Origin: Nitrospira sp. CR1.2
GTDB taxonomy: Bacteria; Nitrospirota; Nitrospiria; Nitrospirales; Nitrospiraceae
Direction of reading: 5' to 3'
DNA: 64,000 nt
Assembly (NCBI GenBank): GCA_014055495.1
Contig: WIAG01000006.1
Coordinates: 1-64,000 of the forward strand
Both the position numbers and the translations under genes were made by a program. Positions 30,508-36,983 of this stretch are shown here, in pieces. Position 1 is the first letter of the stretch. Each line of letters opens with the position of its first letter. The notes under the pieces are model-generated. The model saw only the letters and a list, made by a program, of their open reading frames with translations, had not been told where the DNA came from and did no database searches.

Positions 30508-30693
30508 GCTGTCCCCCTGTGGAAAGAGAGGAAGTCTAACAGGAAGCAAATTTCACCCGCAACCGGTCTCCGATGATTCCCGAACCCGTCGCACCACGAC
30601 AGCGCCATCCTGATACACCGCCCTTCCCCCCGAACATCCGCTCATCCACGCACTTCCTTGACAGGCCTGCCGAGGCCGGTGTACCAAGGCGGG

Positions 30694-31269
30694 ATGCAGG
30701 TGTTAGGCGTACTTGTCTGCCTCATCGTCCTCCTCTCAGACTCCTCCCTCGGAGCTGAAGACCTGCCCCTCACGCACAATGTGCCGATTCCAGACTTTCA
30801 GAATCGCACCGAGAGCACCAAACCCTACAATTTTGACGCCCCGCCCGAGGGCATGTTCCGCCGCATTGTCCTCGCCGAGGGATTCGATGAAGAACTGGGC
30901 TTTCAACGGACTCATGAAATCGTTCCCGTCAAACCAACCGAGCAGTTCCTCGCCGGCACGAAACCTGTTTTTATCGTCTTCGAGCTTCACCAACACTATC
31001 AATCGTTCCAAGTATTCGGACGCTGTTATCCCGAGCCGGACACTGGAGCCGCGGGACAACAAGTCGTGGCGGAAGACGCCATGTACATCGCCCTGGAAGA
31101 CCAAACCGGCTATCTCACCCTGCTCCCCAAGGAAGGCAGGTGGAACCCCGGCCGCTATAAAGTGGAAATCCACGCCGGCGAACAGGTCAACGACATGAGC
31201 TTGATGGGCACCATGCGCTTCACCGTCTCCGCTTCACCCGACGGATCAGACCCTGCCAAGACGCACTAG
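30694..31269 (+). CDS. exported hypothetical protein
   Basis: About 191 residues with a signal peptide (MQVLGVLVCLIVLLSDSSLGAE). The mature part is beta-rich: PVFIVFELHQHYQSFQVFGR and GRYKVEIHAGEQVND look like an Ig-like fold. No named family was recognised. It stands alone between the methyltransferase (divergent) and the TauE-like permease. ATG 30694 is chosen over 30658 because it gives a clean signal sequence and has AAGGCGGG immediately upstream. Confidence 0.65.
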   Translation: MQVLGVLVCLIVLLSDSSLGAEDLPLTHNVPIPDFQNRTESTKPYNFDAPPEGMFRRIVLAEGFDEELGFQRTHEIVPVKPTEQFLAGTKPVFIVFELHQHYQSFQVFGRCYPEPDTGAAGQQVVAEDAMYIALEDQTGYLTLLPKEGRWNPGRYKVEIHAGEQVNDMSLMGTMRFTVSASPDGSDPAKTH

Positions 31270-31399: not shown

Positions 31400-32131
31400 A
31401 TGCATTGGGATATCCTCGCCACGATCCTCCTGACCACAACCATTCAATCGCTGTTCGGCGTAGGTGTGCTGCTGTTCGGCACGCCGATTCTGCTGGTGTT
31501 GGGCTATGACTTCATCACCACCTTGACCACACTCCTTCCCGTCTCGCTGACCATCAACCTGCTGCAAGTCAGTAAGGACTACCGACAGATCCATCTTCCC
31601 TTCTACCGCCAGATCCTCACCCGTTCAATTCCCTGCGTCATCCTCTGTCTGCTGCTGGTGACGACACGCAAAATGAACATCGGCAGCGTCGTCGGGCTTT
31701 TTCTGATCGTGGCCGCGCTGAAAAGCGTGTATGCCCCGTTTCAACGGGTCATCGAATCACTCGTACGGTACGAGCGCACGTACTTCACCGTGATGGGCAT
31801 GGTGCATGGCTTGACCAATCTAGGCGGCTCACTGCTGACAGCCATCATTCACAGTAAGCCGTACGACAAAGACCAGACCCGCGCCACCACCGCGGTGTCC
31901 TACGGCACCTTTGCGCTCTTTCAACTCCTGACGCTTGGGCTCTCCCTCGGTCCATCGGCCATCGTCACCCCCACGACCGCCTTATACATAGTCGTGGGCG
32001 TGAGCATGTTCCTGGGCACCGACCTGCTGCTCTACAGCAAGATGAGCACGGAGCGATACCGGACCACGTTCGCGGCATTTCTGTTTCTCTCCGGCACCGC
32101 GCTGATTTTCAAATCGGTCTTCCTGCGTTAG
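31400..32131 (+). CDS. TauE/SafE family membrane permease
   Basis: 243 residues, mostly hydrophobic with about seven to eight membrane segments. FGVGVLLFGTPILLVLGY in the first repeat and MVHGLTNLGGSLLTAI in the second match the TauE/SafE signature (paired Gly-rich re-entrant motifs). The family exports sulfite, sulfoacetate or other organic anions. A GAGGAG site precedes the ATG. Downstream, an ABC-type gene follows after about 180 bases. Substrate unknown. Confidence 0.83.
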   Translation: MHWDILATILLTTTIQSLFGVGVLLFGTPILLVLGYDFITTLTTLLPVSLTINLLQVSKDYRQIHLPFYRQILTRSIPCVILCLLLVTTRKMNIGSVVGLFLIVAALKSVYAPFQRVIESLVRYERTYFTVMGMVHGLTNLGGSLLTAIIHSKPYDKDQTRATTAVSYGTFALFQLLTLGLSLGPSAIVTPTTALYIVVGVSMFLGTDLLLYSKMSTERYRTTFAAFLFLSGTALIFKSVFLR

Positions 32132-32318: not shown

Positions 32319-34010
32319 TTGAGCCCACAGCCTACAACCAGCCCGGCCTATCCGCAGTATCAGCTGGACCGAGTCCTTCGCGATATCTTCACGCACATCA
32401 GCCTCCTCCTGACACTCGAACGGTCCATGCTCGGTATCATCGCCTCGTATGCCGTGGCGATCGGGCTCTTCCTTCTCTGCGTCCCCATCGCCGTACAGGA
32501 ATTGGTCAGCACCTTTTCCTTTGCCATGGAGCCACGCATGATCTTTACGCTGACTATCTTTGTCGCCAGCTCGCTGACCGGGGTCGCCGCCTTCCGCGTA
32601 TTGCAGGCGCGCGCAGTGGAAACCCTTCAGCAACGGATCTATACGCGGATTGCCATCGCCTTCACGCGGCTGCTCCCACGCCTGCGTGACGACACGTTCG
32701 CACCGCAACAGGCGCATCGATTCATGGAGGCCGACTTGCTCACCCGGGCACTGGTCGCCATGGTGGCGGATCTGTTCAATGTCGCGGTCGTCGGCACCAT
32801 CGGGGTGACCATGCTGATCCTGTTTCACCCCTACTTCACCCTCTACATTCTGATCCTGATCCTCGGCTTTGTCGGACTGCTGACGCTCTTCGGCCGCGGC
32901 GGCTTCTTCATCACCCTTGAGATGTCCCGATTGCACTACCAGATTTTCGGCTGGATTCAAAACATCGCGCACAACCTCCCGCACCTTCGCGCGGCAGGCG
33001 ACAGCCCCTATCTGCTGGAACGCACCGACGGCCTGACCCGCCTCTATGCCCGCGTTCGACAGCGCCGCTCGGATACCTTGACGGGCCGGCAGTATAAAGC
33101 CGCCGCCCTCTGGCAGGTGGTCGGCCACAGCGGACTGATTATTACCGCCGGGCTCCTCGTCGTCGACGGGCAATTGACCGTGGGCCAATTCGCCGCGGCC
33201 GAGGTCCTGGTGGGCAATCTGCTATTGAACATGGACACGCTGGCCCGTCGCATGGTGGCCATGTTTTTCGCTTTCGTCTCCTGCCGGGAAATCGCCGCAG
33301 TGTTTTCGCTGCCGACAGAAGAGGAGCAGGCGAAGGAGAATGTGCCGGAGATGCAGTTCGGAGCCTTGGGGATTCGCCTGACCTGTCGAAACCTGTCTTA
33401 TACCGCTCCGGATGGTTCGACGATATTCGAGAACGTCTCGTTGGAGGTGTCACCCGGGGAGAAAGTGGCGATACTCTGCGGCAGCAACCCCGCAAAGACC
33501 GCGCTGGCCAAGGTGCTGGCCGGGCTTCACCCCCCGACTACGGGTTTCGTCCGGTACAACGAGATGAACCTGGTCGAAGTGAAGCGCAGCTCCATCAGCC
33601 GGGTGCGCGGCCTCATCCTGGATTCGCATCCCACGCTGCTCGACGGCACACTGGAAGATAACATTACGCTGGGACGGCCAGGCATCGAGTATGCCGATCT
33701 CCAATGGGCTTTGCGCTTTGTCGAACTGGACGGGGACATCGATGCACTGCCGGAGGGATTGCACACAGCGGTCTCCGGCTTGGAAGTCACCCTGTCCATC
33801 AGCCAGATTCTCCGCATTCTCGTGGCCCGTGCGATCGTGACACGGCCGCAGGTGTTGATCTTCGACGGGACCCTGCACAACATGCTGCCGACAACGCGCA
33901 CCCTCCTGCTGCGTCGGATTTGTGACAAAGACCAGCCATGGTCGGTCGTGTTTCTCTCGAACGATCCGACCTTCTCAGCCGACGTGGATCGGCGGATTCT
34001 CATCGAATAG
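32319..34010 (+). CDS. ABC-exporter-like protein with degraded ATPase motifs
   Basis: About 563 residues: an N-terminal membrane domain with roughly six helices (about 35-310) and a C-terminal nucleotide-binding domain fold (345-563). Every key motif deviates. Walker A reads CGSNPAKTA (K393 kept, glycines lost), the signature LSGGQ is LSISQ (492-496), Walker B ends VLIFDG with Gly replacing the catalytic Glu (517), and the switch His is Asn (N548). A working ATPase is therefore unlikely; a pseudo-ABC protein, regulator or partner subunit is more likely. TTG 32319 has an AGGAG site; GTG 32304 is an alternative. The frame is intact and glycosyltransferase genes follow. Confidence 0.82.
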   Translation: MSPQPTTSPAYPQYQLDRVLRDIFTHISLLLTLERSMLGIIASYAVAIGLFLLCVPIAVQELVSTFSFAMEPRMIFTLTIFVASSLTGVAAFRVLQARAVETLQQRIYTRIAIAFTRLLPRLRDDTFAPQQAHRFMEADLLTRALVAMVADLFNVAVVGTIGVTMLILFHPYFTLYILILILGFVGLLTLFGRGGFFITLEMSRLHYQIFGWIQNIAHNLPHLRAAGDSPYLLERTDGLTRLYARVRQRRSDTLTGRQYKAAALWQVVGHSGLIITAGLLVVDGQLTVGQFAAAEVLVGNLLLNMDTLARRMVAMFFAFVSCREIAAVFSLPTEEEQAKENVPEMQFGALGIRLTCRNLSYTAPDGSTIFENVSLEVSPGEKVAILCGSNPAKTALAKVLAGLHPPTTGFVRYNEMNLVEVKRSSISRVRGLILDSHPTLLDGTLEDNITLGRPGIEYADLQWALRFVELDGDIDALPEGLHTAVSGLEVTLSISQILRILVARAIVTRPQVLIFDGTLHNMLPTTRTLLLRRICDKDQPWSVVFLSNDPTFSADVDRRILIE

Positions 34011-34123: not shown

Positions 34124-34885
34124 ATGACTGTAGCGACCCGCCCATGGGCTTCCGTTGTCATCCCGATCAAGGATGAACGCGAGAATCTGGTTCCCCTGAC
34201 TGAGCAACTCGTGAAGGTGCTTGAGAGCCGCGAGGAGTCACGATCGGCGCCGTTCGAATTGCTCTTTATCGACGACGGGAGCTCCGACGGGAGCTCCGAA
34301 ATCCTCGATAGCCTGGCCGCGCAGTATCGTTGGGTCAAAGTCTTTCACTTCGACCGCAACTACGGCCAGTCGGCGGCATTCGATGCAGGGTTCAAACAAT
34401 CGAGCGGGGACCTGGTGATGACAATCGACGGCGACCTGCAGAACGACCCGGCCGACATCGCCACGCTGCTCCCGCTGATCCACCAATTCGATCTGGTCTG
34501 CGGTTGGCGCAAAGACCGGCACGACAATCTGACACGGAAGATTTCCTCCCGAATCGCGAACAGCGTCCGCAGCGCCGTCACCGGCGACCGGGTCCACGAC
34601 ACCGGCTGCTCCCTGAAGCTGTTTCGACGAGCGGTGGTCGACAAGTTGCAACTGTTTGAGGGCATGCACCGGTTCTTTCCCGCCCTGGCCTTGATGCACG
34701 GATTTACCGTCACCGAGGTGCCGGTGCGCCATTACCCACGCGCGCATGGCACGTCGAAATACGGTGTGGGCAACCGACTCTTCAAGGGCCTCTACGACCT
34801 GGTGGCCGTACGGTGGATGCAGCACCGTTGCCTGCGTTACCACTACCGCACGACCGAGACGCCCTCAGCCTCCGCACCGCTATGA
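34124..34885 (+). CDS. family 2 glycosyltransferase, polyprenyl-phosphate type
   Basis: 253 residues. GT-A fold signatures: VVIPIKDERENL, the nucleotide-binding FIDDGSSDG, DRNYGQSAAFDAG and the DxD-type DGDLQNDPADI, ending with HGTSKYGVGNR. This is the dolichyl/undecaprenyl-phosphate glycosyltransferase group (DPM1/ArnC-like) that makes a lipid-linked sugar donor. There are no C-terminal membrane helices. Its stop overlaps the LABN gene start (ATGA), followed by an ArnT-like gene, so it probably loads the sugar that ArnT attaches to lipid A. Sugar identity unknown. Confidence 0.9.
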   Translation: MTVATRPWASVVIPIKDERENLVPLTEQLVKVLESREESRSAPFELLFIDDGSSDGSSEILDSLAAQYRWVKVFHFDRNYGQSAAFDAGFKQSSGDLVMTIDGDLQNDPADIATLLPLIHQFDLVCGWRKDRHDNLTRKISSRIANSVRSAVTGDRVHDTGCSLKLFRRAVVDKLQLFEGMHRFFPALALMHGFTVTEVPVRHYPRAHGTSKYGVGNRLFKGLYDLVAVRWMQHRCLRYHYRTTETPSASAPL

Positions 34886-35181
34886 CACTCGATACCATCT
34901 GGATCATCATTGGATTCCTTGGGCAGGGGATCTTCTTCATGCGCTGGGTTGTCCAATGGATCGCCTCCGAACGCCATGCAGAGAGCCGTGTCCCGACGGC
35001 ATTCTGGTACATGAGCATGATCGGCGGACTGATCACGCTCGCCTATGCGATCTATCGGCGGGACCCGGTCTTCATAGCCGGACAAAGTATCGGCAGTGTC
35101 GTCTACCTGCGTAACCTCATGCTCATCCACCGTCCTAACCATGGCGCCTCCGATACGGCCTCTCCGGCGACCAAATCCTAA
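34882..35181 (+). CDS. lipid A biosynthesis N-terminal (LABN) domain membrane protein
   Basis: 99 residues with three membrane helices: IWIIIGFLGQGIFFMRWVVQW, a middle segment MSMIGGLITLAYAIY and GQSIGSVVYLRNLML. The FxxRWVVQW and FWYMSMIGG motifs are those of the LABN domain, found alone or fused to lipid-A-disaccharide synthases. It overlaps the genes on both sides (ATGA upstream, TAATG downstream), so the trio is a tightly coupled operon. A flippase- or scaffold-like role in lipid A sugar modification is inferred. Confidence 0.86.
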   Translation: MTLDTIWIIIGFLGQGIFFMRWVVQWIASERHAESRVPTAFWYMSMIGGLITLAYAIYRRDPVFIAGQSIGSVVYLRNLMLIHRPNHGASDTASPATKS

Positions 35182-36983
35182 TGAAACCACACATGAACGG
35201 AGAGTTCCCCCCCTTGCAAACCCCTGCGCCGATTATTGACCGCTCCGTCCAGCCGCTTGCGCTCGTGCTATTGCTGGCGATGGCTGCGGTGCTGTTTTTC
35301 GTCGGACTCGGCTCCCTTGGTCTCACCGACCGGGACGAAGGCCGTAACGCCGAAGCCGGCCGCGAGATGTACGAAACGGGCAACTACATCAGCCCCACCT
35401 TCAATTACGAGCCGCGCTTCGCCAAGCCGGTTTTTGTGTATTGGCTGATGACCGGTTCGTACCACCTGTTCGGCGTCAGCGAATTCGCGGCGCGATTTCC
35501 CTCGGCGCTCTTCGGGCTGGGGCTGATTCTGCTCCAATATCTCTTTTTGACGCGGTGCCGGGGACGGATCGTCGGCCTCTTCGGCGCGGCGATGCTGTTG
35601 CTGAACCTTGAGATCATCGGTCTCAGTCGCATGGCCCTGACCGACAGCGTGTTGATCTTCTTCACCACCCTGTCGCTGTATGGCTTCTGGTTGGGTCTGC
35701 ACGGAGAAGGGCATGAGCGCCACTGCATGTGGCTCTTCTATGTCGGCATGGCGCTGGCGACCCTGACCAAGGGCCCGATTGGTTTCCTCATTCCGATGCT
35801 GGCGGTGGGACTGTACCTGTGGAGCACCCGCACTTGGCCGCTGTTCCGTCGTCGCGGGTATCTCCTTCCCGGCCTCATCCTCTTCGTCGCCCTGGCGCTC
35901 CCCTGGTATCTCATGATGCTGAACATTCACGGGGAACGATATACGACATCTGCACAGGGTGATACGATCGGCCGCTTCCTCGGAGCCATGGAAGGGCATG
36001 GCGGTACGCTGCTGTTCTACATTCCCGTTTTCCTGCTCGGATTTTTTCCCTGGAGCGGCTTGCTCCCCTTTGCCTGGTACCAGAGCTATCGGAGCTGGCG
36101 TGAGGCGAAACGGGCCGGAACCCTCCCCCCGAACCAATCCTCCGATGCCGATGCCCAGTCCTCGCCCGATGCGCTCGAATGGTTCGCTGCCGCCTGGGTC
36201 TTGGGAGGATTCGTCTTCTTCAGTCTCTCCTCAACCCGCTTGCCGCACTATATCGGCCCCTTGTTTCCTGCCGCGGCAATTCTGGCGGCTTGTTATTGGA
36301 ATCGCTGCGTGACCGACCATGCGGCGCCGGGTGTCCGGGCCGCGATCCACACCATGACGGCCGTGGGCTCCATTCTGGCACTGGCGTTTGCTCTGCTCCC
36401 CCCGCTCTACGCCAAATTCGCCGGGAAATTGGTGGAAGAGTTTCCTCTGGCTGGACAAGTGACACTGGGGCCAGGCCCCTACGCCGTCGCCTCCATTTTC
36501 CTCCTGGGCATGGGGCTCGTGGCCTATTTCGGGTTGAGCGAGACGCGAAAACCGGCTGCCTTCTGGGCCGCCGGCGGATCACTCGCCCTCGTGGTACTGG
36601 CCGCTACGCAACTGACGTTTCCACTCATCAACCATTTCGTCATCGAGCCCCCGCAACGGCTGGCTGAAGTTGCAGGGCTCAACCTTGAACCCAACGACCG
36701 GCTGATTCTCTACGGGCAACCGCGCCCGTCGCTCGTGTTCTACGCCAAACGCAAAGCCATCGTCGTCCCGAAAGGCGAAGAGGCCAACATCAAGCCCTAC
36801 CTGACTCAACCGGGGCGCACCATGATCCTCTTACCCGCCGCCATGCGCAATCGATTGCCGTTTGAAACGATAGACTACCCCGTCATGCTGGAGCGTTATG
36901 GCTACATCCTGTTGGCCAGCCAGTCGCTGATCCATGTCCCGGAAGAGGCGGAAAAACCTGCGATACGCATTCCCGGCCATTGA
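35181..36983 (+). CDS. ArnT-like PMT-family glycosyltransferase
   Basis: 600 residues, with about 11-12 membrane helices over the first 480 residues and a soluble periplasmic C-terminal part. The first periplasmic loop holds DRDEGRNAEAGREMYETGNY, the conserved acidic motif of ArnT/PMT (GT39/GT83) enzymes that take a sugar from a polyprenyl phosphate. Family members transfer 4-amino-arabinose or galactosamine to lipid A, or mannose to proteins. Neighbouring GT2 and LABN genes favour lipid A. The start ATG overlaps the LABN stop by one base. Confidence 0.9.
   Translation: MKPHMNGEFPPLQTPAPIIDRSVQPLALVLLLAMAAVLFFVGLGSLGLTDRDEGRNAEAGREMYETGNYISPTFNYEPRFAKPVFVYWLMTGSYHLFGVSEFAARFPSALFGLGLILLQYLFLTRCRGRIVGLFGAAMLLLNLEIIGLSRMALTDSVLIFFTTLSLYGFWLGLHGEGHERHCMWLFYVGMALATLTKGPIGFLIPMLAVGLYLWSTRTWPLFRRRGYLLPGLILFVALALPWYLMMLNIHGERYTTSAQGDTIGRFLGAMEGHGGTLLFYIPVFLLGFFPWSGLLPFAWYQSYRSWREAKRAGTLPPNQSSDADAQSSPDALEWFAAAWVLGGFVFFSLSSTRLPHYIGPLFPAAAILAACYWNRCVTDHAAPGVRAAIHTMTAVGSILALAFALLPPLYAKFAGKLVEEFPLAGQVTLGPGPYAVASIFLLGMGLVAYFGLSETRKPAAFWAAGGSLALVVLAATQLTFPLINHFVIEPPQRLAEVAGLNLEPNDRLILYGQPRPSLVFYAKRKAIVVPKGEEANIKPYLTQPGRTMILLPAAMRNRLPFETIDYPVMLERYGYILLASQSLIHVPEEAEKPAIRIPGH

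Follow-up and report, generated by a model that had tools for sequence, protein, structure and literature searches.

Transport driven by ATP is the defining property of ABC exporters, and the view that the membrane domain of such a protein can function alone has so far been argued from artificial truncations (LmrA-MD and MsbA-MD). A gene of Nitrospira sp. CR1.2 raises the question of what an exporter does when its ATPase has been lost in nature. This gene lies in a window of 64,000 nucleotides, the whole stretch of DNA that was analysed, to which all coordinates given without a contig or locus name refer. Known ABC pumps do not work without ATP, whereas the family to which this gene belongs probably does. 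With a natural, strictly conserved family that retains the exporter fold and HlyD-TolC partners and has lost its ATPase, in one branch along with the entire domain, the question can be put to a direct test. These proteins also suggest that most of the genomes examined from the main nitrite-oxidising family encode an envelope system not yet described.

A half exporter with a degenerate nucleotide-binding domain

The open frame at 32319-34010 (+) encodes 563 residues and starts at a TTG codon closely preceded by an AGGAG ribosome-binding site. Pfam recognises ABC_tran at residues 371-516 (E 4.8e-11). The top NCBIfam matches, which span both domains, are to exporters of peptides and of type I secretion (NHLM_micro_ABC2, 1.3e-42; LssB, 3e-34; HlyB, 7e-27), all of them far below the curated cut-offs. 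The sequence fits descent from either kind of exporter. The Pfam model for the ABC membrane domain does not match the protein, which may explain why this domain had escaped notice.

A structure model built from a 50-sequence alignment (mean pLDDT 80.6) contains six long membrane helices (residues 35-66, 72-121, 129-169, 173-218, 230-282 and 288-329) and a nucleotide-binding domain (NBD). The protein is thus predicted to meet the type IV ABC exporter architecture, a six-helix membrane domain fused to a C-terminal NBD. In Foldseek searches, the best match of the model is HlyB in the HlyB/HlyD complex (8dck; TM 0.88, 2.7 A, 20% identity), followed by 8voz (TM 0.88) and 6rai (TM 0.84). The features of the gene are as follows.

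32319..34010, + strand: the gene under study, a group A pseudo-ABC half exporter of 563 aa
32406..33338, + strand: membrane domain, six long helices (from the structure model)
33354..34007, + strand: degenerate NBD, residues 346-563
33480..33503, + strand: broken Walker A, GSNPAKTA (canonical GxxGxGK[ST]), residues 388-395
33621..33623, + strand: Q-loop position, Asp435 (LDS) replacing the usual Gln
33792..33806, + strand: broken signature, LSISQ, residues 492-496
33864..33869, + strand: end of Walker B (LIFDG), Asp516-Gly517, with Gly replacing the catalytic Glu
33876..33878, + strand: D-loop His520, a new residue fixed in the family
33960..33965, + strand: switch position, Asn548-Asp549 (SNDP), canonically His-Arg

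The initial annotation had noted that Walker A, the signature, the Walker B Glu and the switch His are altered together in an intact frame. All of these residues are present as described, and the observation proves larger than first stated: the D-loop reads LHNM rather than the usual SALD, and the Arg that follows the switch His has also been lost, with Asp549 in its place. The protein is best regarded as a complete half-size ABC exporter whose ATPase site cannot be used, a conclusion inferred from sequence alone, without biochemical support.

Conservation and selection across the family

The alterations are shared by the whole family. Of 108 different members aligned, among them named proteins from N. 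defluvii and N. moscoviensis, 105 possess an NBD, and in every one of these the full GxxGxGK[ST] motif, LSGGQ, the Walker B Glu and the switch His are each absent. As a result, the requirement for functional ATPase motifs is failed throughout (0/105). The replacements are themselves conserved: Gly occupies the Walker B Glu position in 103/105, Asn or Thr the switch His position in 102/105, and the D-loop His is found in 104/105. By comparison, eight ordinary ABC exporters of this and related genomes, aligned in the same manner, all retain the Walker A Lys, the Walker B Glu and the switch His. Nine residues have become newly fixed in the family (N414, R430, W463, R509, G517, H520, R527, W541 and D549), and at these positions the eight ordinary exporters carry other residues. 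Some canonical residues persist, namely the Walker A Lys in 93 of the 105 and the Walker B Asp in 70. In the aligned group A copies (the window gene and its orthologues), the Walker A Lys and Ser/Thr and the Walker B Asp are all retained. In f3, the sister family, Walker A can no longer be recognised (TESQRL).

Comparison of the window gene with its orthologues gives dN/dS values of 0.04-0.07 for the membrane domain and 0.08-0.17 for the NBD; for two paralogues, B and C, the values are 0.03-0.10 across both domains. Recent decay can be rejected because the substitutions are conserved and dN/dS is low. The altered NBD reflects long-standing purifying selection, not chance.

The proposal that the gene is under selection for a non-hydrolysing role is therefore well supported at the sequence level by the conserved substitutions, by dN/dS of 0.04-0.17 and by a branch that has dispensed with the NBD (see below). 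All orthologues and paralogues examined conserve the altered residues. Orthologues with intact motifs, which would have refuted the proposal, were looked for, and none were found among the members with sequences examined (41 relatives, 396 phylum genomes and 79 named loci). A tree with ordinary exporters as the outgroup resolves the family groups clearly; its root was left uninterpreted, as one outgroup row is a spurious long-branch frame.

Distribution

Besides the window gene (A), the genome of Nitrospira sp. CR1.2 encodes two further copies of the family, C and B, which lie next to each other at C138:21379-24806 and are 47% and 53% identical to A. Orthologues of A were detected in 18 of 25 genus genomes (own genome included; 80-100% identity), and the C/B type in nearly all of the 25. 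A profile search at E<=1e-70 recovered the family from 111/396 genomes of the phylum, comprising about 100 of 110 Nitrospiraceae (tallied from the results table) and 11 genomes of f3. At this threshold, the family was not found in phylum genomes outside these two families. The profile search was limited to the phylum, and coverage beyond it rests solely on a scan of the genome collection with two peptide patterns. No description of the family was found in the literature searched (Nitrospira degenerate ABC proteins, pseudo-ATPase exporters and ABC-less HlyD-TolC systems).

In one genome (G009), from a fragmented assembly, the orthologues of A (C270:12515-14191) and C (C1022:2497-4125) each contain an in-frame TAG, which could represent either assembly error or loss.

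Operon partners and copies without the NBD

In the Nitrospira sp. CR1.2 genome, the C and B genes follow those for an HlyD-family adaptor (478 aa) and a TolC-family protein (513 aa), and precede one for a small membrane protein (278 aa). This HlyD is the only one of its type in the genome. The arrangement is widely conserved. In a tblastn census, 45 of 51 B/C loci have HlyD, 48 have TolC and 44 have the small membrane protein, and every missing HlyD or TolC coincides with a contig edge. Both HlyD and TolC accompany all f3 members (11/11 loci in the same type of census). Members of the B/C type and of f3 thus meet the HlyD adaptor and TolC criteria for type I secretion; the window gene does not (0/21 loci).

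The small membrane protein, which carries a four-helix-bundle sensory module, lies at the end of the HlyD-TolC-C-B operon (for example L045:7856-8692). A second match to it, 30% identical, occurs within a 656-residue frame at G000:C3:89474-90097.

Three f3 genomes belonging to one genus (G208, G220 and G369) encode a protein of only 339-348 residues that ends after the membrane domain. In all three, the gene sits directly after those for HlyD and TolC and is closely followed by a proton-antiporter-like (DabB-type) gene, leaving too little room for the lost domain. The model of the shortened protein again has HlyB of the HlyB/HlyD complex as its top match (TM 0.74-0.78). Since the three genomes represent one genus, the loss of the NBD was probably a single event.

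At these three loci (L191:5346-12001, L192:4438-8462 and L193:3510-6750), the DabB-type gene lies on the same strand and is followed by a further gene. At L191, a gene for a DabA-type inorganic carbon transporter comes next.

Genomic neighbourhood of the window gene

Neither HlyD nor TolC was detected near group A genes at any of the 21 loci in the tblastn census. Instead, a cassette of ArnC-like, LAB_N and ArnT-like genes lies downstream at 19/21 loci. In the window, the neighbouring genes are as follows.

31400..32131, + strand: membrane protein upstream of the group A gene, without Pfam support for TauE (11/21 loci)
34124..34885, + strand: ArnC-like family 2 glycosyltransferase, downstream in 19/21 loci
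34813..35181, + strand: LAB_N domain membrane protein of the same ArnC/ArnT-like cassette
35181..36983, + strand: ArnT-like (PMT) glycosyltransferase of the same cassette as the ArnC-like and LAB_N genes

Two statements of the initial annotation about these neighbours did not hold in their original form. The upstream gene had been called a TauE-type permease, but Pfam gives no TauE match even at E<5. The downstream genes had been described as lipid A modification genes; they can be called only ArnC/ArnT-like, as their matches fall far below the curated cut-offs. The suggested connection with polymyxin and lipid A has synteny with these genes as its sole basis.

Also upstream of the pseudo-ABC gene, at 19/21 loci, is a conserved gene for a small, probably secreted protein without a Pfam match (30658-31269 in the window). 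A few genes upstream, the window also encodes an alginate-export-type outer membrane porin (PF13372; 26165-27820).

Comparison with known systems

The best structural matches of the family are the ABC exporters of type I secretion (HlyB, PrtD and LssB/LapB; PDB 8dck, 5l22). Like these, the pseudo-ABC paralogues are encoded with HlyD- and TolC-family proteins. Unlike them, the family has no ATPase motifs and in three genomes no NBD, and the 563-aa protein has no N-terminal peptidase-like domain and a membrane domain that Pfam does not recognise. The family therefore resembles an ABC exporter or type I secretion system but fails a defining test, the ATPase, and is counted as a variant rather than a member.

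Exporters with one degenerate site are common, the other site being kept (PMC7756269). Heterodimeric exporters such as TmrAB, TM287/288, BmrCD and TAP share with the Nitrospira family the exporter fold and a degenerate site; however, they keep one complete catalytic site per dimer, which no pseudo-ABC member offers. Tripartite pumps of the EmrAB-TolC type combine an HlyD-family adaptor and TolC and are driven without ATP. Their inner-membrane part is an MFS protein, whereas that of the Nitrospira family is an ABC-derived domain. Kamneva et al. (2015) described type I secretion-like SecA_DEAD / HlyD / M50 loci that have a second SecA and no ABC ATPase (PMC4452313). Those loci contain no ABC transporter homologue, while the pseudo-ABC genome has one SecA only. 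SecA_DEAD as a substitute motor is ruled out by this single match in the whole genome.

A functional precedent comes from LmrA and MsbA, which retain proton-dependent transport without their NBDs (PMC6155054, PMC4979069). In both truncated proteins, the membrane domain works without the ATPase and depends on key membrane carboxylates: E314 (TM6) of LmrA is needed for proton-coupled transport, and a D41 (TM1)/E149 (TM3)/D252 (TM5) triple mutant of MsbA is inactive (PMC6155054, PMC4979069). LmrA-MD and MsbA-MD are artificial constructs, whereas in the Nitrospira family the same change has been made by nature.

Proposed mechanism

The reading favoured here, likely (probability roughly 0.65) and without biochemical support, is that these proteins form a family of HlyB-type half exporters that lack an ATPase and work without ATP hydrolysis. 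At the sequence level, the conserved loss of catalytic motifs, the newly fixed residues, purifying selection, operon linkage and the loss of the NBD in one genus are all established; the steps that follow are not. The ATPase would have been lost before the divergence of the families that carry the pseudo-ABC exporter. The core form would supply the inner-membrane part of a trans-envelope conduit with HlyD and TolC, encoded in the gene order HlyD, TolC and pseudo-ABC, often with a second pseudo-ABC and the small four-helix-bundle membrane protein. The membrane domain is inferred to be the working part, and the dead NBD, where kept, may act as a dimer scaffold or regulatory platform.

How such a protein might be driven is more speculative. 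Ten charged residues are invariant in every covering sequence (E34, E61, E137, R143, D151, H170, D237, R247, R250 and E295), and these positions are not common to ordinary exporters. E61, D151 and E295 are invariant in 108/108 and H270 is present in 105/108; on the model, they fall in TM1 (E61), TM3 (D151), TM5 (H270) and TM6 (E295), an arrangement reminiscent of the key LmrA and MsbA carboxylates. Coupling to a proton or other ion gradient might involve these four residues. This remains a hypothesis only, because residue-by-residue equivalence to LmrA or MsbA has not been shown: hhalign against MsbA aligned only the NBDs, and no correspondence to LmrA E314 or MsbA D41/E149/D252 is claimed. 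Passive gated conduction is an equally speculative alternative, and the fixed charges could possibly serve partner contacts instead.

Group A is a paralogue that, on this reading, left the HlyD-TolC operon and now stands beside the ArnC/LAB_N/ArnT-like cassette. In the envelope glycosylation step of that cassette it might be the transporter or provide a platform; alternatively, it might associate with the other copies. A conduit role is indicated by linkage for the paralogues only, and group A is tied to it by homology alone. Group A also provides a point against the main reading, as its retained Walker A Lys/Thr and Walker B Asp leave weak nucleotide binding possible. The initial annotation had offered a channel, scaffold or sensor; sequence cannot choose among these or an ion-driven transporter.

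A bolder reading, rated less likely than not, joins several of these claims: Nitrospira and its relatives would possess a natural ATP-independent trans-envelope exporter, ion-gradient-driven or freely gated, that feeds HlyD/TolC, its NBD reduced to a scaffold and discarded in one lineage.

Alternative explanations

The family might bind ATP without hydrolysing it, as a slow switch that opens or closes the membrane part, much as degenerate sites act in CFTR or in heterodimeric exporters. The retention of the Walker A Lys and Walker B Asp in many members, and of Lys, Ser/Thr and Asp in all aligned group A copies, is consistent with this, as is the finding that the LmrA ion current starts on ATP binding without hydrolysis (PMC6155054). 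However, the P-loop glycine pattern and LSGGQ are gone in all members, and since Walker A is unrecognisable in f3 and the whole NBD is absent in three genomes, nucleotide binding is no family-wide requirement; the switch is unlikely. It is also doubtful that the protein is no transporter at all, but a scaffold or an assembly or sensor subunit that holds in place HlyD-TolC in the case of the paralogues, or the glycosyltransferase cassette in the case of group A. The lost motor, the conserved partner linkage and the sensor-like four-helix-bundle neighbour in the B/C operon favour such a role, but the full exporter fold and the unusual fixed charges have been kept, seemingly beyond the needs of a simple anchor.

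The remaining explanations carry less weight. An ATPase that uses substitute catalytic residues could draw on the surviving parts of Walker A and the Walker B Asp in many members and on the new H520, N548 and D549 fixed near the former site, but all catalytic elements have changed at once and one genus dispenses with the NBD, making this very improbable. Equally hard to sustain is the proposal that the protein supplies the degenerate half of a heterodimer, its partner being an intact exporter encoded elsewhere. Heterodimeric exporters do commonly have a degenerate half (PMC7756269), yet the nearest candidate partners, B and C, are just as degenerate, the intact exporters of the same genome are only ~24% identical and lie on other contigs, and loss of Walker A, Walker B and the signature in one half would damage both composite sites. 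Finally, the in-frame TAG in the orthologue from G009 is the one point in favour of a decaying pseudogene, a possibility all but excluded by low dN/dS, the intact frames of the other orthologues and the conservation of the altered residues.

Additional paralogues and neighbouring genes

A further paralogue group, D (L127:9935-14481; also L129, L112 and L136), adjoins genes for a PAS sensor kinase and/or an NtrC-type response regulator, and these neighbours hint at a possible regulated or sensing role. In one genome only (L113:11950-19209), a frame for a 2420-residue RHS-repeat/kelch protein lies directly downstream of the pseudo-ABC gene.
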